Of a DNA stretch of 64,000 bases, positions 14,553-43,540 are shown piece after piece. The notes under the pieces are model-generated. The model did no database searches and was not told the DNA's origin. It saw nothing but the letters and a program-made list of their open reading frames with translations. The position numbers and the translations under genes were made by a program. This DNA comes from Malassezia japonica. Lineage: Eukaryota > Basidiomycota > Malasseziomycetes > Malasseziales > Malasseziaceae. Positions within the stretch are counted from its first letter, which is position 1, and the number at the start of each line of letters is the position of its first letter. The DNA is taken from NCBI RefSeq assembly GCF_029542785.1, contig NC_083372.1, positions 620,001 to 684,000 on the forward strand, given 5' to 3'.

Positions 14553-17500
14553 TTACGCTGCACGCAGTGCGACGGCACGCAGCGTCGCTAGCGATACATC
14601 AAATGACGGCGAGATGGGCACGGGCGTGTGCAGCAGCAGTGCGGCGCGGTCCGCGTAGAGGTACACGGGCAGGAGCACGCCGCCCTCTTCCGCAGGCGCC
14701 CAGCGCAGGGCACAGCGCGACACGACGCTCGTCTCGCCGCTATTCAGGTCAAAGCCCACAGGCTCGTACACGGCTCCGTCCAGCAAGAGGTCTGGGTCAG
14801 GAAGGACACGCACCTTGGATCGGATAGACGCCAGGTGCGCTGCGCGGCCCGAGCTGCACCACGAGCTGCAGCTGCTCGAGACTCGTCTGCATCGCACGCG
14901 CCGCCGCCTGGCGCGTCGCCGTGAGGTACGCCGACGCGGAAAAGAGATGGTGCAGCGCGACACGGGGAGGGGGTGTGCCAGCCTGTGCCAGGCGCGCAGC
15001 TAGGTCCACGATCCACGCACCGAGGCCCATGCCGCGCGGCGTCGCGTACGTCTGCCACGCCGCCGGGATGCGGTCCTGGGCAATGCACTGGACGCATGCT
15101 GCGGCCTCGTTCGTGCGCTTTCCACCGTCGACCGCGTCGCAGACGGCTTGGAGCTGCGTGCGGACAGTGTGCAAGAGAGCCGCACCGAGCGACTGCTCGC
15201 GGTGCCAAAAGCTGGGTAAGTAGAGCGACGTACAAGCCCAGTCCTTCGTCCTCGGGGCGCCCGTGGCCGACATCCACAGGGAGCACGCCGAGCCACTCGG
15301 CCGCCCGCGCGGCCGCCGCGGAAAACTCGGCGAGCGGCGCCTCGGCCGTCTCGCGCTGGTCCTGGTGCAGCGCGGCGAGGCGGCCGAGGGCCGACTGCGC
15401 ACGCGCCGCCGCGACGCTGCGCTCGGCCGCAGGCGCGAGCAGCAGCCACTCGACGGGCTGCGGCTCCATCAGCGCCTGGGCCCACGCGACAAACTGCTCG
15501 ACACGCGTCCCGTCCGGCGCGGCCAACGGCACGCTGTCGTCCGGCGCAAGCACGAATCCGTCGTCAAACGCCGCAGGGACAAACAGGCGGTCGACGAGCG
15601 CGTCGAGCATCGCGCGGTCTGGTGCGTGGTCGAGCTTGGCGCCGTACACGTACTCTTTGAGGAGCGTACGCACTGCGTCCCACGGCAGGTGTGCAGGGTC
15701 GAGGTGCGCTTTCGTGCCGGCCGCATGCGCGGTCCACGTATCCACCACGTCGAGCGCCGCCAAAAAGTCGGCGTCGTGGAACTCGTACGTAGACGTCCAT
15801 CCGAGCGGGACGTACCTGCGGCGCTCGACTGCGACCGCATGTAGATAGCTCACGAGGAAGTAGAGACGCGTGCGTTCCTGCGGCCCCGCCGGCTGCGTGC
15901 GCTGCGCTAGCATACGCAGGCACGCGACCAGCGCCGACTTGACCCCGGCAGGCGGCTCGTGGATCAGCACATGGGCATGCCGCAGCGCGGCAGGCGGCAG
16001 GCGCGTACTCAGCTCGCACGTCACAAACACACGCGTCGACGCATGAGGGTGCAGCGCAGTGAGGCGCGGCACGAGCTGCGCAAGCCACGCGAGCGCGAGG
16101 TGCGCGTTCTTTACGAGCACCCACTGCCCGGTGCGCGCCGCGGTCGCCAGGGCCCGGTCCGCAGCCGCGGTGGCTTCGGGCGCACCGAGCGCCACTTCGG
16201 CGCACGACACACGCTCGGCCGCGGCCAGCGCCTCGACACGCCCGCTCGCGTCGTGGCCGGGCATGCTGCAAAGGAGAAGCGGGGTGTGTGCGTGCGTGCC
16301 TGTTGCAAGACTCGCGAGGCTCGGCGCGTCTTCCTCCAGCAGAGGCGCGCCGAGGATCTCTTGGAGTCCGCGCGAAATAGCCGGCACCGCGCGGTCGGGC
16401 CGCACGATGCGCACGGCAATCGCGCGGCGCACCGCGCCTTCGTCGAGCGGCGCGGCGTCGGCTTCCGGTGCGGGCAGCGCGCTGTATGCGTCCCATGCTT
16501 CTTTGTGCTGCGTGCGGTCGAGGTCGATGCGGCGCACGCACGGCGCATCGCCGAGCGCCGGCTGCAGGAGCACCTCGAGCTCCGTGTCGTCGCTCTTGAC
16601 CTGGCACAGGCGCGCGGCGAGCACGAGGTGGTCTTCATGGAGCAGCGACGGTGCTGTTGCGCGGTACACGTCCTGGAAGAGCGTCTCGTGGAGCTGGGCG
16701 AGGCGCGCATCGGGCGCGTCACCGTGCGCTTTCGCAAGCACCTGGTCAAAGAGCGCCCAGAAGAAGCCGAGGTCCCACTGGTAGTAGGGCTGCAGCACCT
16801 GCATGTCCTGCAGCACAAAGTACACGGCACTCGCCGCCTCGGCAAGCGGCTCGTAGACTTGCGTGACGTGCTGCACATGGCTCGCGACCTGCTCGATACC
16901 CGCAGCCTTGGCCTGCACTTCCTCCGCCTCGCCTTTGAGCGTCTCGAGCGTGGCGACGATGGTGTCGCTCTCGAGCAAGTTGCCTTGGGCATCGTTGAGT
17001 GCCGCAAGGAGCGCACGTTCGAGGTGCTGCAGACGCCGCTGGAACTCGCCTTGGGCGCGTGCGACGTCCGTCCGCTGCGCCTCGACGTCGGGGCGTTCCG
17101 CGTGGAGAATACGCTGGAGCGCCTGGCTCTGTAGGCTCTTGCGTGTCGTGGTAAAGTTGACCATCTGCACGCGGCAAAAGAGGTGCGGCGGCAGCGCAAT
17201 ATTTGCATCGCGCGTCGTGAGAAACAGGCGAAAGGTCGGCGCACAGTCGACGTCCTGCTGCGCGACACGCACGAGCACACGGCCGCCCGTCCGCCGACGC
17301 TCCTGCTTGAGCACCGGCAAGAGGACGGGGTCGAGGTGCTCGGCATCCGTCAAGAGGAGCGGCGTGCCGAAACGCAAGGCGCTCTCGAGCACCTTGACAA
17401 AGCCCGCATCCAGACAACTTGCCGACGCGAGCTTCTCGTCGCGAAAGCGGCGCTCGAGGTAGGTGCCTGCATCGCCCGTCGGGTCGATCAGCAAGGGGTA

Positions 17501-18961
17501 CCGCGTGCAGTGCTCCATAATCACGGCATTGTCCATCGCCAACGCGTCGCTGGGTAGACCGTGTGCGATCCACGCGGCCTGGGTATCTGCCGAGACGAGC
17601 ATGTCGCGCACGCTGAGCGCCGGGCGGTGTGGGATGCCGCCGTCGCGCAGCATACGCTGCCACTCCTCCCAGAGCGTCTCGCGCATCGCCTGGTCAAAGT
17701 AGCCCGCATAGGCAATCAGCGCAGAGCACAGGAGCACGTCGCCGACGAGCGTCTGGACGTGTGCGTCAAACTCGGCACGCCCCGTCTCCCAGCGCGCCTT
17801 TTCCGCCTCGAGGCCGGCAAGGAGGCGCACAGAGCGCTCGACACGTTGGCCGACGCGCTCCATCTCGCTCTTCATCGCCTGAATCTCGCTAATGAGCGTC
17901 GCGTACTCGGCCTTGTACGCCGCAATGCTCTCCTCGAGCTGCGCGACAGCGGCGGCGGCGGCGGCCGCATTCTCTTTCGTCTCGCTCGCGCGCGATTCGA
18001 CCGATGCGACCTGCGCACGCAGCGGTGCGACGCGCTCGAGGATCTCGGCATAGTGCACCTGGGCCATGACCCACAGCGCCAGCGGCCCGCACGCCTTGCT
18101 TGCGTGCTGAATCGTGTCGTAATTGTACTCGTCGCGGCTCAAGTAATCGCGCCGCAAACGTTCGCAGGTGCTGCGCGAGAGCGCCTGCTCGGTGTCGAGG
18201 CGCACGACGCTCGCGATAAAGTCGTCGCGCCGCAAGATGCCTTGCACCGATTTCCAGCCGTCAATGTGGTGGCCGAGCAGAATACACACCGACTCCATCG
18301 TGCTCTTGACTGCCGCAGGGGGATTCGCCATCGAGCGCACTTCGGTCAGGTGCGGCTTCTTGATGTTGCTCACGGCCGCCTGGGCCTCGAGCACCGCAGG
18401 CTCGGCCTCGGCGAGCTGCTGCAGGACCGCGTCGCGCTGGTGTGCGACGTCGGCCTCCTGCTCCTGGAGCGAGGCGCGCAGGGCAAGCGACGCCTCGCGC
18501 TGCGACTCGGCCGCCTGCTGGTTGTGCACCATGCGCTGCAGGCGCTCGTTGGCCTCTGCGTTCATCTGCTCGAGGCGCTGGCGCTTCGAGCCGAGCGACG
18601 CTTGGAGCGCCTCGACTTCGGTCACGGTATCCGCCAGGCGGTCGAGACCCACGAGCCGAAACCGCTGCTGGTCCTCGAGCGCCTCGCGCTGCGCGCTGAG
18701 GATCGCGCCGAAGCTATGGATCTGCGCGAGGAGCTGCTGCGGCGACCGCGAAAACGCACGGCCGTGCAAATGTGCGCACCGCTCGCCTTGTGCGTACGCG
18801 GCGAGGTGCATCGCGACCATCGTCTCGACCACTGCATCGCGGTGCGTTCCGAGGTCGTGCGCCGCGGTGAGCTGCGCCGCGACCGTGCGGCACGCGTCCG
18901 CCGACCAGTCGCCGATCAGCGCGTCGTCCATCGGTCGTCGACGCGTCGTGCCACGTGGCAA
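14553..18961 (-). CDS. DYN2: Dynein heavy chain, C-terminal half (stalk, microtubule-binding domain, AAA5-AAA6)
   Basis: Second polypeptide of a split cytoplasmic dynein heavy chain. Minus-strand exons 18961-15234, 15211-14814 and 14791-14553 give 1,454 residues; both introns are 22 nt. IGDWSADACRTVA (about 16-28) picks up exactly where dyn1 stops. Residues about 75-195 form the first stalk coiled coil, IKKPHLTEVRSMANPPAAVK (about 200-219) opens the microtubule-binding domain, and an Ala/Glu-rich second coiled coil follows to about 400. AAA5, AAA6 and the C-terminal domain follow; splicing restores FFWHREQSLGAALLHTVR, IPAAWQTYATPRG and LLPVYLYADRAALL, typical of the dynein C-terminus. ATG 18961 is the longest start; ATG 18931 (MDDALIGDWS) is equally plausible and leaves a CACGTG just upstream. 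Only 17 bp separate ATG 18961 from the LEA1 stop. In Ustilago maydis the corresponding dyn2 product supplies the microtubule-binding site. Confidence 0.93.
18952..18957. promoter_or_regulatory. CACGTG at the dyn2 start
   Basis: CACGTG inside the second and third codons if dyn2 starts at 18961, or 21 bp upstream if it starts at the in-frame ATG 18931. Its resemblance to sites in other gaps favours the shorter protein. Confidence 0.35.
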
Positions 18962-18978
18962 CTATGGGGTATGGGACA

Positions 18979-19740
18979 CTACGCGTCGGCGTCGGGGACG
19001 TAGCCAAGCTTTAGGCGCTCTTCGAGCTTGCGAATCTCATCGAGCGACTCGCTCTTTTCAATCGCATCGTGGATCGCCTGGCGCTCCTTGGCCGAGAGAA
19101 GGCGGCCGGCGGCGCCGGCGACTGGCGCGCCCGGCTCGAATGAGTGCGACTTGGTGCTTGGTGCGGCCGGTGCATCGGAGCCCGAGAGGCGCACGGCAAG
19201 CTCCGACGGGCGTCCCTCGGGCGTCTCCATAAGCCGGCGGGCATGGTCGCGTTCCTGGGTCAATAAAAAAAAGAAAAAACGCACCTTGTCCGTAACACGT
19301 TTGTAGTCGAGCACGCGCACGCTCGGCACGCGCCAGATCACAAACTCGCGGTAGTGCTTCTCGCGCGTGATAGGGTTCCCCATGAGCGAGAGGTACTCGA
19401 GGTGCCGGAGCTTGCGCAGCGGCACGACCTGGCGGAGGTCCTGGAGCGCGTTGTTCGTCAGCACAAGTGTATGCAGAAACGGCAGAGACCGCGCGACATT
19501 CTCGTCGATGCGCGACACGAGGTTATTCGAGAGGATCAGGTGCTTGAGGCGCACCAGGCGCGGGAGGTTCCCCACGTACTTGATTTCATTATCGGTAAAA
19601 TCGAGCGCGTCGTTTTGGTCGCGCGTCACACCGAGGTTTTCAAGCACGACAATCTTTAGTCCACGCAAGTCCAGCTCGCGCTCTTTGAGCGGGTTCAGCG
19701 CCGAGTCGCTCTGCTTGAGCAGCTCCGCGGTGAGCTTCAT
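18979..19740 (-). CDS. LEA1: U2 small nuclear ribonucleoprotein A' (LEA1)
   Basis: Leucine-rich-repeat protein of the U2 snRNP, needed for branch-site recognition by the spliceosome. Exons 19740-19285 and 19254-18979 give 243 residues. The N-terminus MKLTAELLKQSDSALNPLKE and the LRRs (ELDLRGLKIVVLENLG, LVRLKHLILSNNLVSRID, LRHLEYLSLMGNPIT) with the cap YREFVIWRVPSVRVLDYKRV are the U2A' hallmark. The intron (19255-19284) is 30 nt with a pyrimidine run and ATTGAC before CAG. It is a multiple of three with no stop, so retention would insert VRFFFFLLTQ between DK and ERDHARR. It diverges from CDC3 across 85 bp. Confidence 0.93.
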   Translation of the reverse strand: MKLTAELLKQSDSALNPLKERELDLRGLKIVVLENLGVTRDQNDALDFTDNEIKYVGNLPRLVRLKHLILSNNLVSRIDENVARSLPFLHTLVLTNNALQDLRQVVPLRKLRHLEYLSLMGNPITREKHYREFVIWRVPSVRVLDYKRVTDKVRFFFFLLTQERDHARRLMETPEGRPSELAVRLSGSDAPAAPSTKSHSFEPGAPVAGAAGRLLSAKERQAIHDAIEKSESLDEIRKLEERLKLGYVPDADA

Positions 19741-19756
19741 CGTAGGCGAAGGAAGC

Positions 19757-19774
19757 CACGTGGCAGCTCACGTG
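19757..19774. promoter_or_regulatory. Two CACGTG palindromes between LEA1 and CDC3
   Basis: CACGTG at 19757-19762 and 19769-19774 in the 85-bp divergent gap between LEA1 (start 19740) and CDC3 (start 19826). Confidence 0.45.
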
Positions 19775-19825
19775 ATCGCGGGGCACGCCGTGCCGCGGCG
19801 GGCGCACTGCCTGGCGTGGACTGTG

Positions 19826-21025
19826 ATGATGGCTGCTGCTACGCAACCCGCGGCTGCGACGATCCCGCGCAAGAAACTGACTAGCTATGTCGGCTTTGCG
19901 AACCTGCCGAATCAGGTGCACCGTAGCACTGTCCGCAAGGGCTTCACCTTCACCGTGATGGTGGTCGGCGAGACGGGCCTCGGCAAGTCGACCCTGATCA
20001 ACACGCTCTTTAACACGAATCTCGTGCCGAGTGGTGAGGAGCGTCTCGCCAGCCGCGAGCCTGCGCAGACTGTTGGAATTGACACGATCAGTGCTGACAT
20101 TGAGGAGAACGAAGTTCGCCTGCGCCTCAACATCATCGACACCCCCGGCTTTGGCGACTTTGTCAACAACGAGAATGCTTGGGAGCCGATTGTCCAGACC
20201 ATCGAGGCGCGCTTCGACTCGTACCTCGAGCAGGAGAACAGGGTGAACCGCAGCAAGATTATCGACAACCGCGTGCACGCGCTCCTCTACTTTATCCAGC
20301 CGACCGGCCACGCGCTGCGCGCAATCGACCTCGAGTTCCTCTCGCGCCTGCACCAGCGTGTCAACGTGGTCCCGGTGATCGCCAAGTCGGACACGATGGA
20401 CCCCAGCGAGGTGCAGAGGTTCAAGCAGCGGATACTCCGCGACCTCGAGTTCCACAACATCAAGACGGTGCAGCTTCCGATCGGCCCTTACGACGACGAG
20501 GAGTCCATTGCCGAGATCGAAGAGATTCAGAGCAAGATTCCGTTTGCGATTGTCGGCTCGAACGACCTCGTCAAGACGCCGGACGGTCGCACGGTGCGTG
20601 GCCGCGCCTACCCGTGGGGCGTGATCGAGGTGGACAATGAGCATCACTCGGACTTTGTCAAGCTGCGCCAGATGCTCATCCGCACCAACATGGAAGACCT
20701 GCGCGAGCTCACCGACAAGGTGTACGAGGGCTACCGCACCCAAAAGCTCTTGTCGCTCGGCGTGAGCCAGGACGACTCCGTCTTCCAGCAGGTGAACCCC
20801 GGCGCAGCACAGGCCGAGGCCCGTGCCCTGCACGAGTCCAAGCTCGCCAAGATGGAGAACGAGATGAAGCTCGTCTTCCAGCGCAAGGTCGCCGAGAAGG
20901 AGGCGAAGCTCAAGCAGAGCGAAGAGGAGCTCTACGCGCGGCACCGCGAGATGCGCAACGCCCTCGACCAGCAGCGCCAGGAGCTCGAGGAGCGCAAGCG
21001 GCGAATCCAAAACAGCCTGCGCTAA
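19826..21025 (+). CDS. CDC3: Septin, CDC3-like
   Basis: GTP-binding septin that assembles into the bud-neck filament. 399 residues from ATG 19826 (an adjacent in-frame ATG is at 19829), no intron. The polybasic lead RKKLTSYVGFANLPNQVHR and the P-loop GETGLGKST (about 47-55) start the GTPase; DTPGFGDFVNN is the G3 motif, and AKSD is G4. The septin unique element RGRAYPWGVIEVDNEHHSDF follows. The last about 90 residues are a charged coiled coil. The GYVGFANLPNQVHR-type opening and the C-terminal coiled coil fit the Cdc3 branch better than Cdc10 or Cdc12, from memory of the family. The open frame continues upstream of the ATG to 19367 only by overlapping LEA1. Confidence 0.9.
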   Translation: MMAAATQPAAATIPRKKLTSYVGFANLPNQVHRSTVRKGFTFTVMVVGETGLGKSTLINTLFNTNLVPSGEERLASREPAQTVGIDTISADIEENEVRLRLNIIDTPGFGDFVNNENAWEPIVQTIEARFDSYLEQENRVNRSKIIDNRVHALLYFIQPTGHALRAIDLEFLSRLHQRVNVVPVIAKSDTMDPSEVQRFKQRILRDLEFHNIKTVQLPIGPYDDEESIAEIEEIQSKIPFAIVGSNDLVKTPDGRTVRGRAYPWGVIEVDNEHHSDFVKLRQMLIRTNMEDLRELTDKVYEGYRTQKLLSLGVSQDDSVFQQVNPGAAQAEARALHESKLAKMENEMKLVFQRKVAEKEAKLKQSEEELYARHREMRNALDQQRQELEERKRRIQNSLR

Positions 21026-21074
21026 CCTCCACGTAGATTCGTAGAATTGCTCGATTGCCCTGACGCGTCCACGC

Positions 21075-24000
21075 ATGGCGACGGACCCCGCACTCGGCGC
21101 GTACCTCGCCGCGCTTTTGCCGGCGGTGCTCGGGGGCGAGGCGCACCCATTGGAAAATGAAGAGGGCGAGGAGAGCTTCGCCGAGGTCGCCGACGCGTTC
21201 TGCACCGACGCGGCGCTCCCAGTGGTGTTTGTAGACCAATACTATCGCGAGGGACACATCGCGTATGGCCTCGCGCGGCGGCCGACATACGAGCCGCCGG
21301 GGCAGGTGTCGAGCGTGGCGCTGGTCAAGCGCCATGCGCACATCGACACGCAGGCGCCGCTCGCGCCCCAGCTGCGCGTCGTGACCTTGGTGAGCCCGGC
21401 GGAGGAAGAGGCGCAGCACGCGCTCCTCGAGACGCCGTACGAGGCGCTGGAGACGGTGGTGCACAGCGTCATGACGCCGTGGTTCGATGCGTACGCGTCG
21501 CACGAGCGCGACCAGGAAAAACGCGCAAAGGAGGACGAAATCCCGATGGTCAAGCGCAAGTTTGCCGAGCTCGAGCTCTCGCTGCGGCACCTCCAGCAGA
21601 GCGTCGAGATCCCGCAGGTGGTCCTTGCGATCCACCCTGCGATCCGCGCGGCCGTCGAGACGTGCGCGGCGGAAAAGCGGCCGGTGTCAACCGACGCTGT
21701 CGAGCCCACATCGCTCCTCACCGACGACCAGTTCGTCAATGAGCTGCACGCCGAGATGAACGGGTGGGTACGCGCCGTCCAGAAGGTGACCAAGCTCGAC
21801 CGCGACGCGTCAAGCGGCACGGCGATGCAGGAAATTCACTTTTGGAACGCGATGGAGCACGCCTTGGAGGACCTCGAGGGACAGCTGCACGCCCCGGGCA
21901 TCACGCTCACCCTCGATATCCTCACGACCGCAAAGCGATTCCATGCTACGGTCTCGTTTCACGCAGACACCGGCATCAAGGACGCACTCGAAAAGGTCAA
22001 GAGCTACAATGTGTTGATGCGCGACTTTCCCTTGCCCGAGCTCCTCGCAGCGACGACACTGCCGACGTGCAGCGACGCGCAGCGCGCCATCTTTACGACG
22101 CTCACCAAGAAACTACGCGTGAGCGCGTACCCGGTCGCCCGCGCACTTGCGTTTGTCGAGGCGATCGGGTGCGAGGCGACTGCCGCGCTGCTCCGCATCC
22201 TCGCGTCGCTTGCGCCGATGCACCTCGCATACGACGGCTGCAAGGCGGTCCTGGAAGAGGCGCTGCACGTCCTCCAGGAATGGGACGAGCACGTCAAGGA
22301 ATTCGTCTATCTCGCGCGCGACCTCACGCGAAAGCGCGGCGAGAAGCTCATCCCGATCAAGGTCGCGGCCGCACACGCGCCGCTGCGCGCGCGCCTCGAA
22401 TACCTCCAGCGCTTCCGTGCGGCGCACGAGGAGCTCGCCGAGATGGCCGACGTCGGCCGCGCTTGGTCGTCGAGCACCAACGTGCCGCTCCTCACCGAGC
22501 TGCACGCGGCCCTCGACGGAATACGCGCCGTCGACACGCTCGACGTGTCGGAAAAGGGTACCGAGACACTCGCCGCGGCCGAGGCGCAGTACAATGCACG
22601 TATCGCGCACGTCGAGAGCCAGCTCATCGAGAAGCTGCGCACACTTCTCGCACACGCTCAGTCCGCCCGCGAGCAGCTGCGCGTCCTCGCCCAGTGCAAC
22701 CGGCTGTTTGTGCGTCCCAAGGTCCGTGCAGCGGTCCAAGAGTACCAGCAGGTGCTCCTGCAGAGCGTACAGGCGGATATTAGCGCGCTCCAGGCCAAGT
22801 TCCGCGCAGGCTTCCGCGGCTCGGACGCGCACCTCGCCGCCCAGCTGCGCCACCAGCCCGAGATTGTCGGCGCGATCGTGTGGGCGAACGAGATCGAACG
22901 CCAGCTCCAAGTATACCTCCAGCGCGTCCAGGACGTGCTCGGCACGGGCTGGGAACACTATGCGGACGGCCAGCGGATCTACGCAGAGAGCACGACATTT
23001 GCTCGCAAGCTCGATACACGCCCGCTTCTCGCGGCCTGGTCGCAGGACGCGGCACGGCGCGGCACGCACATCACCGGGCCGCTGCTGCGCGTCGCCGCCG
23101 ATCGCGCGACACGCGAGCTGCGCCTCGTGGCCAACTACGACGCGCAGGCCTTTGTCTTTGCGGACGAGGCACACGCACTTACCATGCTCGGCATGGCGAT
23201 TCCCCAGGCGCTCGTGAGTGCCGCACTCGACGCGCGGCGCATCTACCCGTTTGCGCTGACGGTCGTGCACGCCCTGCGCACGCTCGAAAAGGTGCAGACG
23301 CAGATGGAAAGCCTAAAACCCATGGCGCCGCTCCTCGCACAGGCCATTGCCGAAATGCACGGATTGCTGGCCCAGGCGATGCAGGCGCGCTGGGAGCGTT
23401 TTCTCGACTCGTACAGCAGCGTGTATGCGAGTGCCAGCGCGGATGCCTTGCGCGAAAATACGCAGGTAGCGCTGATCGAGCAGCTCGCGGCCGCTGCCAT
23501 TGTGCTGGAAGGACACGCACAGCGCCTCGCCGCCGCCTCGGCTGACGTCGAGGGCGTGCTCGAGCGCATGCACGCGTGCGCGTACGACCGCGCGGCGTTT
23601 TCGACGCACATGGCTGCATTGCAGGAGCACATCGACGCTCTGAGCCTCGCAGCGTACCCCAACCTCGCCGCGTGGGTCGCCGCGCTGGACGAGCGCGTGG
23701 AAAAGGTCCTGCACCAGCGCCTCGTCGCAGAACTGCACCACTTTTACGCCTCGCTCGCGGCGCGTACAGAGCGCACGCCAGTCACCCTTTCCGTGCGCCT
23801 CGCCAGCGCCAGCCTCACGCTCGAGCCGCCGCTCGCACATGCGCGCAGCCACTGGTACAGCGTATTGAATGAGATCCTAGCGGTGGTGCTCGACGTGCCG
23901 CGGCCGCATGCAGGCCGCTACGACCTGCTGCAGGACGCGTCCAAAGCGACGTACAGCGCCCTCTTGCGCCGTGTGCCGAGCGCCGCACTCACTGCGCCAC

Positions 24001-27000
24001 TCGGGCGCCTCGAGACGCGCCTCACCGAGGCCGACGCGTACGCCGCGACCTGGCTCCAGCTCCAGTTCCTCTGGGACGTGGAGCCTGACACGGTCGCGGC
24101 CGACCTCGGCACGGACCTCGAGGCGTGGCATGCAGTCGCACAGCGCCTCCGGCAGACGCGCGCGCTCGTCGATGGGCGTGCAGTGCGCCGCTCTTTTGCG
24201 CTGGTCGACGTCGATGCAGAGCCGGTGCAAGCACGTGTCGCGGCAAAGCTCGATGCGTGGGAGCGCAGCCTCTTGCAGCACTATGCGGACACACTCGGGG
24301 CGGCGATGCGCGAGGCGCACACGTCGCTCGCAGAGGGCCGCCGGACGCTGGAGCCGATGCACGTCGCCGGCGCATCAACCGCGCAGGTCGTTGGCCTGAT
24401 CACGCTCGTGCAGCGCCTCACGACCGAGGCGCAGCATGTCGCCCCCACCCTCGATCTGTATAACGCAGGGCAGGCGGCACTGCAGCGCCAGCGTATGCAG
24501 CCCTCGGCGTGGCTGCACGCCGAGCAGGTCGCCGGCGAGCACGCTGCGCTGCAGCAGCTGCTTGCTGCGAAGCGTGCATTGATCGATGCGGAGCACGAGT
24601 CGATCCACAGCCAGATTTCCGCCGAAGACCGTGCGGTTGGCACCAAGATCGACGCGCTGACCACCGCGTGGGCAGACGAGCGCCCGGTACACGGCTCGGT
24701 GCCGGTCGCCGAAGCGCTGCAGACGCTAAACACGTTTGCGACGCGCCTTACCGAGCTCCAGGGCGCAATTGCACAGCTTGGCCTTGCCCAGGAAGCGTTT
24801 GGCATCACACCACGCACCGACGCAGGTCTTACTGTCCTCGCCGAGGAGCGCGACGAGCTGCACGGCGTCTGGGGCGCGCTCGCCGACGTCTGGCAGCAGC
24901 TCGACGAGGTGCGTGCGACGCCGTGGGCAGCCGTTAACGGCCGCCAGGTGCGCCAGCGCCTCGAAAGTCTGCTGCGTACCTGCCGCGCGATGCCGAGCCG
25001 CATGCGCCAGTACGCCGCGTACGAGCATGTGCAAGAGGAGCTGTCCTTCCTGCTGAAACATGTCGCCCTCCTCCAGGAGCTGCATGGCGACGCTTTCCAA
25101 GAGCGGCACTGGCGCGCGCTGTACAAGGCGCTCGGCAAACGCTTCCTCCCATCTGCGCAGACGCTGGGGCAGGTATGGGACCTCGACTGGCACGCGAACC
25201 TCGCGACGATCCGCACGATGCTTGCCGATGCGCAAGGCGAGTATGCTTTGGACGTGTACCTGCAACAGGTGCGCGAGGCATGGACTGGCTACGGACTCGA
25301 GCTCATCAATTACCGCAACGAGTGCATGCTGATCCGCGGCTTTGACAGCCTCTTCCAGCTCGCAGCCGAACACGCCAATGGGCTGCGTGCGATGAGCGCC
25401 TCGCCGCATTACCGTGTCTTTGAAGAAGAGGCACGGCGCTGGGAGGAGCGCCTCGCGCGCGTGCAGACGACCTTTGACCTCTGGGCGCGTGTCCAGCGCC
25501 AGTTTGTTTACCTGAATGGCATCTTTTCGGCGAGCCCGGAAATCCGACACATGCTCCCGATGGAGAGTGGGCGCTTCCAGAGCATCAGCACCGAGTTCCT
25601 CGCGCTGCTGCGCCGCGTACACAAGACGCCGTACGTGCTCGAGGTTGTGCAGCAGCCCGGCCTCGAGTCTGCACTCGAGCGCCTCGACGAGCTCCTGCAC
25701 AAGATCCAAACGGCGCTTGGCGAGTACCTCGAGCGCGAGCGCGCACGCTTCCCCCGCTTCTACTTTGTCGGCGACGAGGACCTGCTCGAGATGCTGGGCA
25801 ACAGCAAGGATGCCGCAAGGGCCGCCAAGCACTTTTCCAAGATGTTTGCCGGCCTGCATCGCGTCGAGGAGGCCAACGGTACTATTTCAGCCGTCGCGAC
25901 GCGCTCGGGCGACCGTCTCGCCCTGGAGAGCCCTGTTGTGGTGAACGAGTATAGCGGAGTGCACGAGTGGCTCGGCGCGCTCGAAGCGAGCGTCCAAGCG
26001 ACGCTGCGTACGCGCCTCGTCGATGCCGTCGCGTCGCTGGAGCGCGTCGACGACGAGGCACTGGTCGCCTGGCTCGGTGCGTATCCGCCTCAGCTTGTCG
26101 TACTTGCCTCGCAAATCGTCTATACGCGCCGCGTTGAGGCGGCGCTTGCCACCCGCACGTCGCTCGAAGCGGTGGCACAGCCGCTGGAAGCGCGTATCGC
26201 GTTCCTTGCTGAGAACGTGACCAAGGTGGATGCGGCCGTGCGCCGCGCATGCGAGCAGCTCCTTACGCTGCTCACGCACCAGTCAGAAACCCTTTCTGCG
26301 CCATCGATGCGCAGCTGCGACAGCCCGGACGCGTTTGCGTGGCAGTACCAGCTTCGGCACTATCTCGACGGAGATTGCGCTACAGTGCGAATGGCGCACA
26401 CGTCGTTTGCGTACGGCTTTGAACTGCTGGATACCGGCGAGCGGCTCGTGCACACGCCGCTCACTACCGCGTGCTTCACGACGCTGACGCAGGCGCTGCA
26501 TGCGCGCTGCGGCGGTGCGCCTTTCGGTCCCGCTGGCACAGGCAAGACGGAGACGGTCAAGGCGCTTGCGCACGAGCTCGGGCGTCTCGTGCTTGTCTTC
26601 AACTGTGACAGTCAATTTGACGGGCAAGCGATGGCGCGCATCTTTGCGGGCTTGTGCCGTGTCGGCGCATGGGGCTGCTTTGACGAGTTCAACCGTCTGG
26701 AGGAGCGCGTCTTGTCGAGCGTCTCGCAGCAGATCCAGGCGATCCAGCAGGCGCTTGGCGGTGCGCAGACCGCCGAGCTGAATGGCGTGCCGGTCACGGT
26801 ACATGCGCATACTGGCGTGTTTGTCACGATGAACCCCACGTACGCCGGTCGCTCGCACCTGCCAGATAACCTCACGCAGCTCTTTAGGAGCGTCGCGATG
26901 ACCGCGCCAGATATGCGCCGCATTGTACAGGTACTGCTGCTGGTGCACGGCTTCCAGCACGCCCAGGCGCTTGCGTCTAAGATGGTGCTCCTCTTCCAGC

Positions 27001-29963
27001 TCTGTGGCGAGCAGCTGAGCCGTGCGGCGCACTACGACTTTGGCCTGCGTGCGCTCAAGGCCGTGCTGCGCCGCGCCGCGGCCCTCTGCCGCAGTACGAC
27101 GTTGCCGAACGACACGACGCGCCTCGATGTCGAGCAGCGCATCCTCGTACAGAGTGTGCACGAGATCCTTCCGCCGAAGCTCGCGCAGGACGATGTGCCG
27201 CTGCTTACGGCGCTTGTCCAGGACGTCTTCCCTGGCGTCGCGTACGAGCCTGCGGCGCTCGAGACCTTGCACAAGCATCTCGCCGACGTCTGTGCTGAGC
27301 AGCACCTCATGCCCGGTGCCTGGCTCGACAAGGTCGTGCAGCTGTACCAGATGCAGTTTGTCTCGCACGGTGTGATCCTTGTCGGTCCGGCTGGCTCGGG
27401 CAAAACGCGGGCATGGCAGGTCCTGCGCGAGGCACTCGCGCGCGCCGACGGCGTCGAAAGCGTCGCGTACACGCTCGAGCCCAAGGTGTGGAGCAAGGAG
27501 CACCTGTACGGCACGCTCGACGCGACGACGCGCGAATGGACCGACGGCCTGTTCACCTCGATCCTGCGCCAGATCCGCGAGAATATGCGACGCGAGAGCG
27601 ACAAGCGCCACTGGATTGTGTTCGACGGAGATATCGACCCCGAGTGGGTCGAGAATTTGAACAGTGTCCTCGATGACAACCAGATGCTCACGCTGCCGAC
27701 TGGTGAGCGCCTCGGCCTCCCCGAGAACGTGCGTCTGTTGTTTGAGGTGGACAGCGTGGAGCATGCGACGCTTGCAACCATTACGCGCTGCGGCATGGTC
27801 GCTTTTGGCGCCGAGCTCGTATCCCGCGAGGCGCGCTTGGAACATGCGCTTGCCGGGCTCGCCCGTGTGCCGCTGGGAGGCGACGAGGAGTTTGTCTCGA
27901 TTGCAAGCCCCGAAGCGAGCGCTTCCGTGCCGCAGTGGACTGCCGACGCAATCCGCCCGTACTGCGTGCCGGGCGCGCTGGTGGACAAGGTCCTCGATGC
28001 TGCGTACGCACACGACCACATCATGCCGCTCGACGACAGCCGCGCAATTGCGACGCTCTTTTCGCTGATGCGCCGCGCTGCGCGCCAAGTCCTGTCGTAC
28101 AATGTGCGCCACGCCGACTTTCCCCTGCGCCAGGACCAGGTGACGGCGTATTGCCGGCGCATGCTGTGCGTTGCGCTTGTGTGGGCGTGCGCAGGCGATG
28201 CGCCGCACGCGGTGCGTACGTCGCTGAGCGATGTCGTGCGTATGCACGCAGACGTCGACGTTCCGAATGGCGCGCTACTTGACTACGACCTTGAGCTTGG
28301 CGCCGAGGTGCGCTGGAAAGCGTGGGCGGACGAGGTGGCGCACGTCGAGGTCGAGACGACGGCCGTGGCACGCGCCGATGCCGTTATTCCGACGCTCGAT
28401 ACGGTGCGCCAGGAGGCGCTGCTGTATGCCTTCCTGCTCGACCACCGCCCCGTGCTGCTGTGTGGTCCGCCGGGTTCGGGCAAGACGATGGTGCTCTATG
28501 CGACGTTGCGGCGCCTTGCCGACGTGACGCTCGTCGGGCTGAACCTGAGCAGCCAGACGACGCCGAAAGCGCTGCTCACGCTGCTCGAGGAGCACTGCGA
28601 GTACCAAAAGACGCCGTCAGGCACGCGCCTCGTGCCGAGCCAGCTCGGACGCCGCCTCGTGGTGTTCTGCGACGAGATCAACTTGCCTGCGCCGGACGCG
28701 TACGCGACGCAGCATGTCATTGGCTTCTTGCGCCAGCTCGTCGAGCAGCGTGGCTTCTGGCGCGAGCGCACCTGGGTCGCCCTGGAGCGGATCCAGTTTG
28801 TGGGAGCATGCAATCCCCCGACGGACCCCGGGCGTACGCCGCTGAGCATGCGCTTCCTGCGCCACGCCCCTGTGATCATGGTCGACTACCCCACGAAGCC
28901 GTCGTTGCACCAGATCTACCATACCCTCGTCCGCGCCGCGCTGCGTGCGACGCCAAACTTGCTGGGCTACGCCGAGGCGCTCACGTCTGCCATGGTCGAC
29001 TTTTTCCTCGCATCGCAGCAGCGCTTTACACCTGAGATGCAGGCGCATTATATCTACTCCCCACGCGAGCTCACGCGCTGGGTGCGCGGCATCTACAAAG
29101 CGATGAGCCGTACGGAGCTTGCGGCGCTGCCCGAGCTTGTGCGTCTCTGGGCGTACGAAGGCCTGCGCCTCTTCCAGGACCGCCTCGTGGAAGAGAGCGA
29201 GCGCCAGTGGACCGATGCAGCGCTCGACGACGCGGCCAAGGCCGCGTTCCCCGCGCTGGATGTCGCGACGGTGCTCGCGCGTCCCATTCTCTACTCCGAC
29301 TGGCTCTCGAAAGACTACCGGAGTGTCGAGCGTGCGCCGCTGCGGCAGTACGCCGAGGCGCGTCTGCGTGGCTACTCGGAGGAGGAGCTCGACACGCACC
29401 TCGTCTTGCACAACCCCGTGCTTGACCTGGCGCTCGGCTGCGACCGTGTGCTGCAGCAGCCCGGCGGGCACCTGCTGCTGATCGGCGTGAGCGGCTCGGG
29501 CCGCACGACCGTGGCGCAGTTCTGTGCGTGGCTGCGTGGCCTGTCGCTGTACAGTGTGCCGACCGCGCGGTCGTACCGCGACGAGGACTTTGACGAGGAC
29601 CTGCGCAAGCTCCTCAAGCGTGTCGGCGTGCGTGGCGAGCGTGTGTGCTGGACGATGGACGAAGGACAGGTCGCGCATCCTGCGCGCCTCGAGAAACTCA
29701 ACACGCTGCTGGCGAATGCCGAGGTCGCTGGGCTGTTTGAAGGAGAGGAGCATACCGCGCTCCTTTCCGCGCTGCGCGACGCGGCGCAGCGCGAAGGGCT
29801 CATGCTCACGGCGGAAGACGAGCTGCTGACCTTTTTCCGGACGCAGATCATGGCGAATCTGCACGTGGTGCTAACGATGAACCCCCCCCATGGCGGTGTC
29901 GGCGCCAAGGCGACTGCGTCGCCTGCGCTCTTTAACCGATGCACGTTGGTCTATTGTTGGTAG
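21075..29963 (+). CDS. DYN1: Dynein heavy chain, N-terminal half (tail, linker, AAA1-AAA4)
   Basis: First polypeptide of the split cytoplasmic dynein heavy chain: 2,962 residues, no intron. Residues 1 to about 1,400 are the tail that binds intermediate chains, and the linker follows. AAA1 has a Walker A GPAGTGKT at about 1818-1825 and Walker B CFDEFNRL. AAA2 has GPAGSGKT at about 2104 and FDGDIDPEWVENLNSVLDDN. AAA3 has GPPGSGKT at about 2464 and VVFCDEINLPAPDAY. AAA4 has GVSGSGRT at about 2804, with arginine in place of the Walker A lysine. The chain ends NLHVVLTMNPP...SPALFNRCTL plus four non-dynein residues and a stop, just where an intact heavy chain would continue to FGDWS. With dyn2 it totals 4,416 residues, a full-length heavy chain. 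It starts 49 bp after CDC3 and stops 10 bp before the convergent hydrolase gene. Confidence 0.96.
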   Translation: MATDPALGAYLAALLPAVLGGEAHPLENEEGEESFAEVADAFCTDAALPVVFVDQYYREGHIAYGLARRPTYEPPGQVSSVALVKRHAHIDTQAPLAPQLRVVTLVSPAEEEAQHALLETPYEALETVVHSVMTPWFDAYASHERDQEKRAKEDEIPMVKRKFAELELSLRHLQQSVEIPQVVLAIHPAIRAAVETCAAEKRPVSTDAVEPTSLLTDDQFVNELHAEMNGWVRAVQKVTKLDRDASSGTAMQEIHFWNAMEHALEDLEGQLHAPGITLTLDILTTAKRFHATVSFHADTGIKDALEKVKSYNVLMRDFPLPELLAATTLPTCSDAQRAIFTTLTKKLRVSAYPVARALAFVEAIGCEATAALLRILASLAPMHLAYDGCKAVLEEALHVLQEWDEHVKEFVYLARDLTRKRGEKLIPIKVAAAHAPLRARLEYLQRFRAAHEELAEMADVGRAWSSSTNVPLLTELHAALDGIRAVDTLDVSEKGTETLAAAEAQYNARIAHVESQLIEKLRTLLAHAQSAREQLRVLAQCNRLFVRPKVRAAVQEYQQVLLQSVQADISALQAKFRAGFRGSDAHLAAQLRHQPEIVGAIVWANEIERQLQVYLQRVQDVLGTGWEHYADGQRIYAESTTFARKLDTRPLLAAWSQDAARRGTHITGPLLRVAADRATRELRLVANYDAQAFVFADEAHALTMLGMAIPQALVSAALDARRIYPFALTVVHALRTLEKVQTQMESLKPMAPLLAQAIAEMHGLLAQAMQARWERFLDSYSSVYASASADALRENTQVALIEQLAAAAIVLEGHAQRLAAASADVEGVLERMHACAYDRAAFSTHMAALQEHIDALSLAAYPNLAAWVAALDERVEKVLHQRLVAELHHFYASLAARTERTPVTLSVRLASASLTLEPPLAHARSHWYSVLNEILAVVLDVPRPHAGRYDLLQDASKATYSALLRRVPSAALTAPLGRLETRLTEADAYAATWLQLQFLWDVEPDTVAADLGTDLEAWHAVAQRLRQTRALVDGRAVRRSFALVDVDAEPVQARVAAKLDAWERSLLQHYADTLGAAMREAHTSLAEGRRTLEPMHVAGASTAQVVGLITLVQRLTTEAQHVAPTLDLYNAGQAALQRQRMQPSAWLHAEQVAGEHAALQQLLAAKRALIDAEHESIHSQISAEDRAVGTKIDALTTAWADERPVHGSVPVAEALQTLNTFATRLTELQGAIAQLGLAQEAFGITPRTDAGLTVLAEERDELHGVWGALADVWQQLDEVRATPWAAVNGRQVRQRLESLLRTCRAMPSRMRQYAAYEHVQEELSFLLKHVALLQELHGDAFQERHWRALYKALGKRFLPSAQTLGQVWDLDWHANLATIRTMLADAQGEYALDVYLQQVREAWTGYGLELINYRNECMLIRGFDSLFQLAAEHANGLRAMSASPHYRVFEEEARRWEERLARVQTTFDLWARVQRQFVYLNGIFSASPEIRHMLPMESGRFQSISTEFLALLRRVHKTPYVLEVVQQPGLESALERLDELLHKIQTALGEYLERERARFPRFYFVGDEDLLEMLGNSKDAARAAKHFSKMFAGLHRVEEANGTISAVATRSGDRLALESPVVVNEYSGVHEWLGALEASVQATLRTRLVDAVASLERVDDEALVAWLGAYPPQLVVLASQIVYTRRVEAALATRTSLEAVAQPLEARIAFLAENVTKVDAAVRRACEQLLTLLTHQSETLSAPSMRSCDSPDAFAWQYQLRHYLDGDCATVRMAHTSFAYGFELLDTGERLVHTPLTTACFTTLTQALHARCGGAPFGPAGTGKTETVKALAHELGRLVLVFNCDSQFDGQAMARIFAGLCRVGAWGCFDEFNRLEERVLSSVSQQIQAIQQALGGAQTAELNGVPVTVHAHTGVFVTMNPTYAGRSHLPDNLTQLFRSVAMTAPDMRRIVQVLLLVHGFQHAQALASKMVLLFQLCGEQLSRAAHYDFGLRALKAVLRRAAALCRSTTLPNDTTRLDVEQRILVQSVHEILPPKLAQDDVPLLTALVQDVFPGVAYEPAALETLHKHLADVCAEQHLMPGAWLDKVVQLYQMQFVSHGVILVGPAGSGKTRAWQVLREALARADGVESVAYTLEPKVWSKEHLYGTLDATTREWTDGLFTSILRQIRENMRRESDKRHWIVFDGDIDPEWVENLNSVLDDNQMLTLPTGERLGLPENVRLLFEVDSVEHATLATITRCGMVAFGAELVSREARLEHALAGLARVPLGGDEEFVSIASPEASASVPQWTADAIRPYCVPGALVDKVLDAAYAHDHIMPLDDSRAIATLFSLMRRAARQVLSYNVRHADFPLRQDQVTAYCRRMLCVALVWACAGDAPHAVRTSLSDVVRMHADVDVPNGALLDYDLELGAEVRWKAWADEVAHVEVETTAVARADAVIPTLDTVRQEALLYAFLLDHRPVLLCGPPGSGKTMVLYATLRRLADVTLVGLNLSSQTTPKALLTLLEEHCEYQKTPSGTRLVPSQLGRRLVVFCDEINLPAPDAYATQHVIGFLRQLVEQRGFWRERTWVALERIQFVGACNPPTDPGRTPLSMRFLRHAPVIMVDYPTKPSLHQIYHTLVRAALRATPNLLGYAEALTSAMVDFFLASQQRFTPEMQAHYIYSPRELTRWVRGIYKAMSRTELAALPELVRLWAYEGLRLFQDRLVEESERQWTDAALDDAAKAAFPALDVATVLARPILYSDWLSKDYRSVERAPLRQYAEARLRGYSEEELDTHLVLHNPVLDLALGCDRVLQQPGGHLLLIGVSGSGRTTVAQFCAWLRGLSLYSVPTARSYRDEDFDEDLRKLLKRVGVRGERVCWTMDEGQVAHPARLEKLNTLLANAEVAGLFEGEEHTALLSALRDAAQREGLMLTAEDELLTFFRTQIMANLHVVLTMNPPHGGVGAKATASPALFNRCTLVYCW

Positions 29964-29973
29964 TCTATACATA

Positions 29974-31629
29974 TTATTTCAAAGGAGCATCCAGTTCAGA
30001 TACAATTTGGGGCAGCACGTTGCCCGGCCCCATGACGTACGTGCCGTGGTGCAGCCCCTTGCGGTACTCGAGCACGTCGCGCATGCCGTTGCGCGCAAGG
30101 AAGCGCTCGACGACTGGCGCGTCCACCACCGTATCGGAGCCGGCGAGGTACACGCGTGTCCGATTCGGGTTGTCGTGGTTCGGGATGTCGTCAATAAACA
30201 GCACATTCGACGACCAGTCAAAGTTGCGGGTCAATACGTTCGCGGTACCGAGCTCGCGCGCGACAAAGTAGCGCAGCGCGTACTCGATAAAGGTGTTTGC
30301 CTTTTTGTACAGGAAACGGTAGCACAGATGCGGCGCCCAGAGCTGGAAGCACACCGGGTCCACGAGGATCGAGCGCTGAATCAGGTCCGACATGTGCTTC
30401 AGCAGCCAGGTATGCAGGATCGTGCCCATACTGTGCGACATCACCGACACGCCACACTCGTCAAAGCCATGGCGCTCGATCATGGCGCGGATCAGCGCGG
30501 CACTCTCCGGAGCGCGCCAAGGGCGCAGGAAGCGCGGCGACAAGATGTCCCCCGATGTCCAGGGCTGCAGCGGGATGAGCACCGGGCGCGGCTGGCGCAT
30601 GAGCTCGGGGTTGAGCAGCCCGCGCACGACGTCCACGTACTGCACCATGCCGATACCGAGGCCGTGCAGGAAAAGGACCGGGAGCGGCATCTCGCCCTTC
30701 TTGGCCGCGCTTGCGCTCCATTCCGACGGGATGTAGAGCAGGTAGGACACGTCGCCGATCTTCAGGCGCTGCATGCCGTAGCGCCGGCTCCAGATGAAGC
30801 GTGCGAGCTCGTTGCCGAGGGCCACTGCTGCGTACAGCCCAAACGGACGCGAGCTCACACGCACCGGGTCGAGCGACAGGAGCATGGTGCGCTTCGAGCG
30901 CTTTTCCTCCGGGCTCAGCTCGACGTGCTCCGGGAATTCTTTGCGGCCGCTGCGTGCGGCAAAGAGGCGGGTCGCGTCTTCGAGGAACTCGAGCTGCTTC
31001 TGCGCGTGTTCGCTTTCCTCGCCATGCTCCTTGTCCTCCTCTTGCAGTTGCTTGTAGAACTTGCCAAAGAGCGCCCAGCTAAGCCACTCGTACACGTCCT
31101 GCCTCGTGATATTCTCCGTCTTGATGCCGATGAACCAGCCGCTCATTTCGCGGCGGAACTCGACGGCGCGGGGATCGTCCCAGGCGAGATGGCGGTTCGG
31201 CTCCGGCAGCTGCTCCGCGCCCGTCTTGGCCTTGAACAAGTCCTTGCGGTCGGTGCCCTCTTTGTTCATCCCGTCCGACAGCGCGGTCGTGATAGCCTTG
31301 ACGACATAGTTGCGCGTCGCGGTGTGCGACACGCCCGGCACTTGCACGCGTGCCGCGAGGTGGCGATAGTAGAGCGAGAAGAGCACTTCAATCAGCGCAT
31401 ACAGGAACCAGCCGCGCGAGCTCAGCGCGCGCGAAAAGCGCGGGAAGCGCCGCGCAGCCACCGGAAGCGTACCCCGCACAACATGGCGGAGGCCGTCCGC
31501 GAGGTTCTCAGCGAGGAGCGTACGGTAGAGAATAAACAGAATAAAGTAGGTCCATGAAATTGGTGTAATGCCCCACACAGCGAGCACGAGGACCTTGGCC
31601 ACCGCCTTCGGGGGTTCTTGGGAGAGCAT
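29974..31629 (-). CDS. Alpha/beta-hydrolase-fold protein with N-terminal membrane segment
   Basis: 551 residues from ATG 31629; the frame is open to 31776 but upstream residues look non-coding. Residues about 8-40 (VLVLAVWGITPISWTYFILF) form one or two membrane segments. The hydrolase core starts near PVLFLHGLGIGMVQYVD, an oxyanion-type HG motif. VSVMSHSMGTILHTWLLKH holds the nucleophile serine in S-H-S-M-G. NPNRTRVYLAGSDTVVDAP and the late LHHGTYVMGPG plausibly carry the acid and histidine. This resembles fungal membrane-anchored lipase or esterase-like proteins; the substrate is unknown. It is convergent with dyn1, with a 10-bp gap between stop codons. Confidence 0.8.
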   Translation of the reverse strand: MLSQEPPKAVAKVLVLAVWGITPISWTYFILFILYRTLLAENLADGLRHVVRGTLPVAARRFPRFSRALSSRGWFLYALIEVLFSLYYRHLAARVQVPGVSHTATRNYVVKAITTALSDGMNKEGTDRKDLFKAKTGAEQLPEPNRHLAWDDPRAVEFRREMSGWFIGIKTENITRQDVYEWLSWALFGKFYKQLQEEDKEHGEESEHAQKQLEFLEDATRLFAARSGRKEFPEHVELSPEEKRSKRTMLLSLDPVRVSSRPFGLYAAVALGNELARFIWSRRYGMQRLKIGDVSYLLYIPSEWSASAAKKGEMPLPVLFLHGLGIGMVQYVDVVRGLLNPELMRQPRPVLIPLQPWTSGDILSPRFLRPWRAPESAALIRAMIERHGFDECGVSVMSHSMGTILHTWLLKHMSDLIQRSILVDPVCFQLWAPHLCYRFLYKKANTFIEYALRYFVARELGTANVLTRNFDWSSNVLFIDDIPNHDNPNRTRVYLAGSDTVVDAPVVERFLARNGMRDVLEYRKGLHHGTYVMGPGNVLPQIVSELDAPLK

Positions 31630-31772
31630 GGTGCAAACGAACCCTGATCCCCCTGCGTCGCGAACTTTTTCTTTGTCAGCTCGCTGGCGTTGTGCCTGTA
31701 CTCCTACAGGACGCATCGGGGAAAATGCACTATCGGGGGTTCGTCGGCTTTCACGTGGATCTGCAACACCTA

Positions 31773-43503: not shown

Positions 43504-43540
43504 GCTACGATGTGGAGGTGCCGGAAAGGGCACAAGACGA

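Follow-up and report, generated by a model that had tools for sequence, protein, structure and literature searches.

How can a giant, essential gene come to be carried as two genes, and what becomes of the protein module in which it was cut? These questions are raised by a 64,000-nucleotide (nt) stretch of the Malassezia japonica genome (NC_083372.1, positions 620,001 to 684,000), hereafter the window, to whose full length all coordinates refer and which is part of contig 3 (1.02 Mb) of the nine-contig, 8.43-Mb genome. Two genes in the window, dyn1 and dyn2, together encode a single cytoplasmic dynein heavy chain, which is divided within its fourth AAA module (AAA4).

Two Genes for One Heavy Chain

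The two genes, and the introns of the second, are as follows:

21075..29963, plus strand: dyn1, encoding tail and linker, followed by AAA1-AAA3 and the first part of AAA4 (open reading frame [ORF], Pfam, structure match)
14553..18931, minus strand: dyn2, encoding the remainder of AAA4, stalk, microtubule-binding domain, AAA5, AAA6 and C terminus (Pfam, splice model)
15212..15233, minus strand: dyn2 intron 1, 22 nt (best-scoring splice model against M. obtusa Dyn2)
14792..14813, minus strand: dyn2 intron 2, 22 nt (best-scoring splice model against M. obtusa Dyn2)

The intronless ORF of dyn1 (2962 aa, ending SPALFNRCTLVYCW and a stop) contains the Pfam domains DHC_N1, DHC_N2, AAA_6, AAA_5, AAA_7 and AAA_8, the last of which, representing AAA4, covers profile positions 3-187 of 259; its best solved-structure match is to residues 113-3092 of the cytoplasmic dynein 1 heavy chain. 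The AAA4 portion retained in Dyn1 would correspond to the large subdomain. The dyn2 product starts at ATG 18931 (MDDALIGDWSADA), comprises 1444 aa once the two introns, both required by the 3' end, are removed, and contains the MT, AAA_9, Dynein_heavy and AAA_lid_11 domains. The Pfam modules of a cytoplasmic dynein heavy chain (DHC_N1, DHC_N2, AAA_6 to AAA_9, stalk and D6) thus occur in order across both genes, and both halves match solved structures of cytoplasmic dynein 1. DHC_N2 (PF08393), the MT stalk (PF12777) and Dyn2 each had one match in the whole genome, with no uncut copy, in a search that scores the best candidates only. Homology to the cytoplasmic dynein heavy chain is certain; among the P-loops of AAA1, AAA3 and AAA4, Lys is found in the first two and Arg in AAA4, the function of which is in doubt.

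A preliminary description of this DNA had proposed a heavy chain split into two genes and cut within AAA4. The ORFs and Pfam modules confirm the former and the truncated AAA_8 match the latter. Its coordinates also stand, except for the 5' end of dyn2, placed at 18961, which is a TTG opening the listed frame; the real start is the ATG given above.

Probably One Cut across Ustilaginomycotina

The features at the site of the cut are the following:

29940..29963, plus strand: CTLVYCW and stop, the conserved new Dyn1 C terminus (34 cut Dyn1 ends)
18905..18913, minus strand: GDW of Dyn2 (residues 7-9), the point at which the chain resumes (G[DH]W near the N terminus in 48 of 48 rows, P0121-P0168)

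Searches with dyn1 residues 2430-2962 and with Dyn2 gave 2420 matches (90%-identity clusters) and 162 matches, respectively, and the counts given here refer to the best 120 of each. Dyn1 rows that end soon after SPAL[FL]NR were classed as cut, and those that continue through WxGDW as uncut. This sorts 119 of the 120 rows (34 cut and 85 uncut), none of which ends elsewhere near the site; the Violaceomyces chain (P0030), the gene model of which departs from the conserved sequence ahead of the site, was left out. The named cut chains come from Malassezia, Ustilaginales, Tilletia, Tilletiaria and Ceraceosorus.

The cut Dyn1 chains end 7 residues after SPAL[FL]NR in 28 of the 34 cases, 8 residues after it in 3 and 6 residues after it in 3, and 31 of them have the terminal residues [YF]C[WF], three of these with one extra Thr. 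On the Dyn2 side, the top 48 rows carry GDW (47 rows) or GHW (1 row) at residue 5-74, and a later row, P0171 (at least 1150 aa, without the AAA4 end), has GDW at residue 12. Five others (P0169, which is the Microstroma Dyn2, and P0172, P0173, P0174 and P0180) start further inside and have no GDW, and the remaining later rows, which are shorter or contain uncut sequence, were not counted. At this place, CVL[DN]W[FIM]GDW is found in each of the 85 uncut chains, so that at most one residue (F) was lost at the join, in agreement with the near-lossless join of the preliminary description. The window genes, cut between SPALFNR and GDW inside AAA4, have the Ustilaginomycotina split, which, judging by these sequences, looks like one old event. 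An AAA4 split common to Ustilaginomycotina, with M. globosa named, is already present in the available part of a 2015 survey (PMC4540427); what the alignments add to it is that the cut is identical almost to the residue and the new Dyn1 end is conserved.

Since the end of Dyn1 and the start of Dyn2 meet with almost no residue missing, the dyn1 and dyn2 messages might be imagined to be joined by trans-splicing into one protein chain. Conservation of the Dyn1 stop and of the residues preceding it argues against this, as do the start codons of Dyn2 itself, 5-74 residues from G[DH]W. In U. maydis, Dyn1 and Dyn2 are reported to be two separate proteins in one complex, both of them needed, as cited in the excerpted survey (PMC4540427), and trans-splicing is considered highly improbable.

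An Altered AAA4 in the Cut Chains

Two Walker A motifs of Dyn1, read from the alignment, are compared here:

29484..29504, plus strand: AAA4 Walker A GVSGSGR (residues 2804-2810), with Arg replacing Lys
28464..28484, plus strand: AAA3 Walker A GPPGSGK, with Lys kept (internal control)

In the AAA4 alignment of the 119 classed sequences, the Walker A Lys position is occupied by Arg in 33 of the 34 cut chains and by Lys in all 85 uncut ones. The sole cut chain that keeps the Lys is Dyn1 of M. vespertilionis (P0006, GVAGSGKTT), possibly a reversion; Violaceomyces P0030, outside the count, has Arg as well. The corresponding Lys residues of the first three modules are present in all 34 cut chains and, among the 85 uncut ones, in 82 for AAA1 (3 unmatched), 84 for AAA2 (one gap) and 84 for AAA3 (one gapped row reads R). 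In AAA4 itself, all 34 cut chains retain the Walker B Asp-Glu pair, and the sensor-1 Asn is found in 19 of 34 cut chains versus 85 of 85 uncut ones. Among the uncut rows, 26 are 3100-3500 aa long and, by length and names, mostly from Agaricomycetes. They retain the AAA4 Lys and, because their heavy chains are cut elsewhere, loss of the Lys tracks the cut in AAA4 and not splitting in general.

A further change is seen on the Dyn2 side of the cut. The spacing between GDW and the downstream PRH is 78 in 83 of the 85 uncut chains; in the 48 cut Dyn2 rows it is 57 in 40 and 51-52 in 4, with 4 unmeasured by the pattern. Most Dyn2 proteins are therefore without ∼21 residues soon after the cut. The missing stretch may be an insertion of the cytoplasmic type, because in the structure-match alignments many axonemal dyneins align with Dyn2 from residue 7-9 and cytoplasmic dynein 1 only from residue 23-29, although the alignment of other axonemal rows begins further along Dyn2.

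Several observations count against a remodelling of AAA4 that went with the cut. All 34 cut chains lie on one branch, so that the association of the cut with the Lys-to-Arg change and the loss of the loop amounts to one event and not to 34. The M. vespertilionis chain indicates that Arg is not obligatory, and the intact Walker B pair indicates that some nucleotide binding may remain. In Dyn2 row P0171, different residues replace part of the lost loop.

As a separate observation, Malassezia Dyn1 chains differ in their AAA2 P-loop (GPAGSGKT, GPAASGKT, GAAGTGKT, GDAGVGKT and others), the Lys being kept throughout, and on sequence grounds AAA2 seems relaxed in this genus.

What the Altered AAA4 May Mean

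Replacement of the P-loop Lys by Arg sometimes allows nucleotide binding but usually not hydrolysis. The Arg of SPALFNR, which precedes the C terminus of Dyn1 by seven residues, is taken here to be the arginine that AAA4 supplies to the AAA3 site. The AAA3 site would therefore be confined to Dyn1, leaving AAA4 as the sole nucleotide site among the first four that is shared between the two chains. In the split motors, AAA4 would no longer work as a normal ATP-gated module.

In the parts of PMC7683685 at hand, the Walker A Lys-to-Ala change in AAA4 of yeast dynein abolished motility and a block of AAA4 hydrolysis had little effect, and Dictyostelium dynein with the K/A change in AAA4 was able to move microtubules at ∼40% of the speed; species may therefore differ in their requirement for AAA4. 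According to this single-molecule work, yeast dynein is immobile when its AAA4 is unable to bind ATP. PMC4540427 cites dynein as essential in U. maydis, and an essential dynein with an altered AAA4 implies either that Arg supports binding or that the gate is no longer needed once the chain is broken. A module that holds nucleotide without cycling is judged the more probable of the two. According to the second, which is entertained only tentatively and is rather unlikely, a cut at the junction of the AAA4 large and small subdomains disconnected linker and stalk from the nucleotide state of AAA4, released the gate and let the P-loop decay; if so, the split dyneins would be natural motors that run without the AAA4 gate. 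These naturally altered motors offer a way to test AAA4 gating directly.

Origin of the Gene Order

The genes that lie between the two halves are as follows:

18979..19740, minus strand: homologue of LEA1/U2 A' (Pfam LRR_9; annotated in relatives as a U2 snRNP complex subunit)
19284-19255, minus strand: in-frame LEA1 intron of 30 nt (read from the sequence)
19826..21025, plus strand: CDC3-type septin (Pfam Septin, 2.9e-110), starting at ATG 19826; the CDC3 label is that of the preliminary description

From a divergent 85-nt promoter, the order is LEA1 (19740-18979) and then dyn2 (18931-14553) leftwards on the minus strand, and CDC3 (19826-21025) and then dyn1 (21075-29963) rightwards on the plus strand. 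The LEA1 stop and the dyn2 ATG are 47 nt apart, and the CDC3 stop and the dyn1 ATG are 49 nt apart. The head-apart arrangement with only LEA1 and CDC3 between the halves was thus correctly described at the outset; the preliminary description also proposed that it is the readable scar of a single inversion. Inversion of the LEA1-CDC3-dyn1 segment does rejoin the gene and is the sole single inversion that works. This is true of any two halves in opposite orientation on one chromosome, and the informative fact is their closeness, the chance of which is about 6 in 4,400 (estimated from 139 ORFs of at least 150 aa in 264 kb).

The same closeness is seen in the relatives, one of which, M. obtusa, has a dyn1 that is 87% identical to that of the window over AAA3-AAA4. 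The dyn1/dyn2 locus tags differ by 3 in M. obtusa (MOBT1_000756/753), by 3 in M. vespertilionis (MVES1_003142/3145) and by 4 in M. yamatoensis (MYAM1_000690/686). In the LEA1 search (120 rows, all of them LEA1 or similar LRR proteins save one septin, P0350), LEA1 shares a contig with dyn1 and/or dyn2 in 8 of 9 Malassezia species, the exception being M. pachydermatis, in which the LEA1 cluster spans 5 contigs; LEA1 and a dynein half (dyn2) are also together on four further contigs of 8 to 73 kb. Tight linkage of dyn1 and dyn2 is kept across Malassezia. An assembly error, which could be suspected with only one assembly of the window to go by, is extremely improbable in view of this linkage in relatives and of the common stop site in the 34 cut Dyn1 chains.

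Loose linkage of the same genes is found in the outgroups. LEA1 and the dynein gene dhc2 are on the same contig in 4 of the 5 Agaricomycetes listed in both searches, namely Jaapia, Mycena floridula, Hohenbuehelia (HGRIS_007406, 007535) and Ephemerocybe (a second LEA1 row is elsewhere), and not in Vararia, which has short contigs. In Glomus cerebriforme, LEA1 and dynein are on different contigs. Dynein and CDC3 are 31 locus tags apart in Cryptococcus, which presumably means closeness, if the tags follow the chromosome. The C. neoformans tags are CNAG_05894 for dynein (PMC6392335) and CNAG_05925 for CDC3 (PMC11651612). These facts fit an ancestral neighbourhood with dynein, CDC3 and LEA1 that a local inversion could have cut, and what they show is loose linkage of the three, not adjacency.

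The alternative is that the gene was split by translocation, or by duplication with complementary loss, and that the halves came close later in Malassezia, the locus recording nothing of the split. Opposite orientation alone has a 50% chance, and the split, being common to Malassezia and other groups, left ample time for reshuffling. Such a later arrangement would have to bring the halves within three genes of each other by chance (∼0.1%), and it does not account for Ceraceosorus, which also has both halves on one contig, or for the loose linkage of CDC3 and LEA1 to dynein in the outgroups. It is a serious possibility, if a somewhat less than even one.

Other points likewise tell against an origin by inversion. 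Ceraceosorus is the only one of 5 species outside Malassezia with dyn1 and dyn2 on one contig, the halves being on different contigs in the other 4 (Kalmanozyma, P. hubeiensis, S. scitamineum and Violaceomyces). In none of 12 non-Malassezia Ustilaginomycotina does LEA1 accompany a dynein half among those listed, a comparison that covers both halves in Kalmanozyma, S. scitamineum, Violaceomyces and Ceraceosorus and one half in the other 8 (Testicularia, U. trichophora, Melanopsichium, P. flocculosa, Thecaphora, U. tritici, Exobasidium and Tilletia horrida), some of the contigs compared being short. CDC3 directly adjoining an uncut dynein, expected in the preliminary description next to the 5' end, was seen in none of the outgroups. 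For the relatives, gene order is deduced from the numbering of locus tags and, in the match lists, from longest contigs that agree in length. The Agaricomycete halves, on one scaffold, have no conserved intervening genes or orientation in the excerpted survey (PMC4540427). If the present layout is the original one, it has persisted since a very old event, because the cut is common to Malassezia, Ustilaginales, Tilletia, Tilletiaria and Ceraceosorus.

The proposed scar therefore has weak support: the layout is kept in Malassezia and the outgroups show loose linkage, but the linkage is mostly lost in other Ustilaginomycotina. A single-inversion origin is plausible, with about an even chance of being correct, and the gene order offers a concrete model for splitting a giant essential gene without loss of function. 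No inverted repeat joining both breakpoints was present among the 25 listed of 220 inverted pairs (18800-30100). The U. maydis tags of dyn2 (UMAG_04372) and cdc3 (UMAG_10503) are uninformative on adjacency, and neither the U. maydis dyn1 tag nor the Cryptococcus LEA1 tag was found in the literature.

Expression of dyn2, Short Introns and Neighbouring Genes

The gap between LEA1 and dyn2 contains TGCCACGTGGCA, and the element within it recurs in the divergent promoter:

18951..18958, no strand assigned: CCACGTGG between the LEA1 stop and the dyn2 ATG, probable dyn2 promoter element (motif enrichment)
19756..19763, no strand assigned: CCACGTGG in the 85-nt divergent LEA1/CDC3 promoter (motif scan)

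CCACGTGG is a palindromic E-box with 9 copies in the window (at 1505, 13766, 18951, 19756, 33052, 38154, 44745, 46659 and 47638) versus 1.37 expected, a number reached in 0 of 100 shuffles. In 264 kb of this contig, where gene starts are ORF-based, 8 of 19 copies lie no more than 150 nt upstream of an ORF start (at 2-74 nt), a zone that makes up ∼5.5% of bases; ORFs themselves contain 7 of the 19. By its distribution, the motif is probably a promoter element, and may belong to the core promoters of this genome; dyn2, the 3' half, would thus probably have its own promoter. Shared transcription of LEA1 with dyn2 and of CDC3 with dyn1, in the manner of operons, was considered and found unneeded, because dyn2 has its own CCACGTGG and gaps of up to 50 nt are common: among 67 pairs of adjacent ORFs on the same strand in the 264 kb, 17 have one (ORF-based, overlaps included).

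A pattern scan (GTACGT...CTNAC..AG) gave many exact 22-nt intron candidates, at 42206-44546 (minus), 14792-15233 (minus), 33501-33802 (plus), 38469-38490 (plus) and 45094-45115 (plus), the two in dyn2 being backed by protein alignment. Very short Malassezia introns are noted in the available part of PMC7426719.

On the far side of dyn1, a gene on the minus strand (29974-31776) is convergent with it, the two stops being 10 nt apart. Labelled a hydrolase in the preliminary description, this gene had no Pfam match at 1e-3; it contains an SHSMG motif, which we take to resemble that of alpha/beta hydrolases. Remnants of the missing half beyond either cut were considered, but there is no room for them, either past the dyn1 stop or upstream of dyn2, where LEA1 intervenes. 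A search for related loci on viral contigs gave none.

A Stepwise Explanation

Taken as a whole, the history that best accounts for the locus, which is favoured with some confidence, is that of an Ustilaginomycotina two-chain dynein that arose by one AAA4 break, followed by remodelling of AAA4, with a local inversion behind the gene order. It would begin with one ancestral break inside AAA4, at a position given by the sequences and probably matching the junction of the large and small subdomains. Dyn1 would have kept everything up to the last AAA4 strand and Dyn2 the remainder, and Dyn2 would have acquired its own start codon and, just upstream, an E-box, visible in the sequence and presumed to be functional. 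The two chains would rebuild one six-module ring by non-covalent contact. The break would have been accompanied by lasting remodelling of AAA4, comprising the Walker A Lys-to-Arg change, a weakened sensor 1, the missing stretch in most Dyn2 and the new conserved Dyn1 C terminus. For the gene order, with the halves close in Malassezia and dispersed elsewhere, a local inversion of LEA1-CDC3-dyn1 would be the most economical origin, the balance of probability being roughly level on this step.

Comparison with Known Dyneins

A dynein split into Dyn1 and Dyn2 was reportedly described in U. maydis by Straube in 2001. The order of the two halves in Ustilaginomycotina and the change of the AAA4 Lys are absent from the titles and abstract openings of the open-licence papers that the literature searches listed, a scope outside which the 2001 description falls, and there may have been earlier notice of either. 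The terms inversion, arginine and lysine do not occur in the main text of PMC4540427, and four of the five parts of that survey mention neither the conserved tail of Dyn1 nor the replacement of Lys by Arg in AAA4 nor the loss of the loop.

According to the same partly available survey (PMC4540427), the Ustilaginomycotina split dynein resembles that of the window in being cut within AAA4 and encoded by two genes that together make a full cytoplasmic heavy chain; compared with the published description, the window halves are separated by just two genes. Agaricomycete dhc1 and dhc2 likewise form a two-gene heavy chain with both halves on one scaffold, but there the tail is cut at residue ∼1180 (PMC4540427, in part), and AAA4 is uncut and keeps its Lys, as in S. 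commune (GVSGSGKT, given there as well). The window dyn1, with 2962 aa and reaching into AAA4, does not have this tail cut (∼1180 aa). The Wallemia split dynein is also encoded by two genes but is cut between AAA1 and AAA2 (PMC4540427, in part). Uncut cytoplasmic dynein 1 of human and yeast has the same domain order, with sequence similarity to both halves, but is a single chain with the Walker A Lys in AAA4 and ∼21 more residues soon after the place of the cut.

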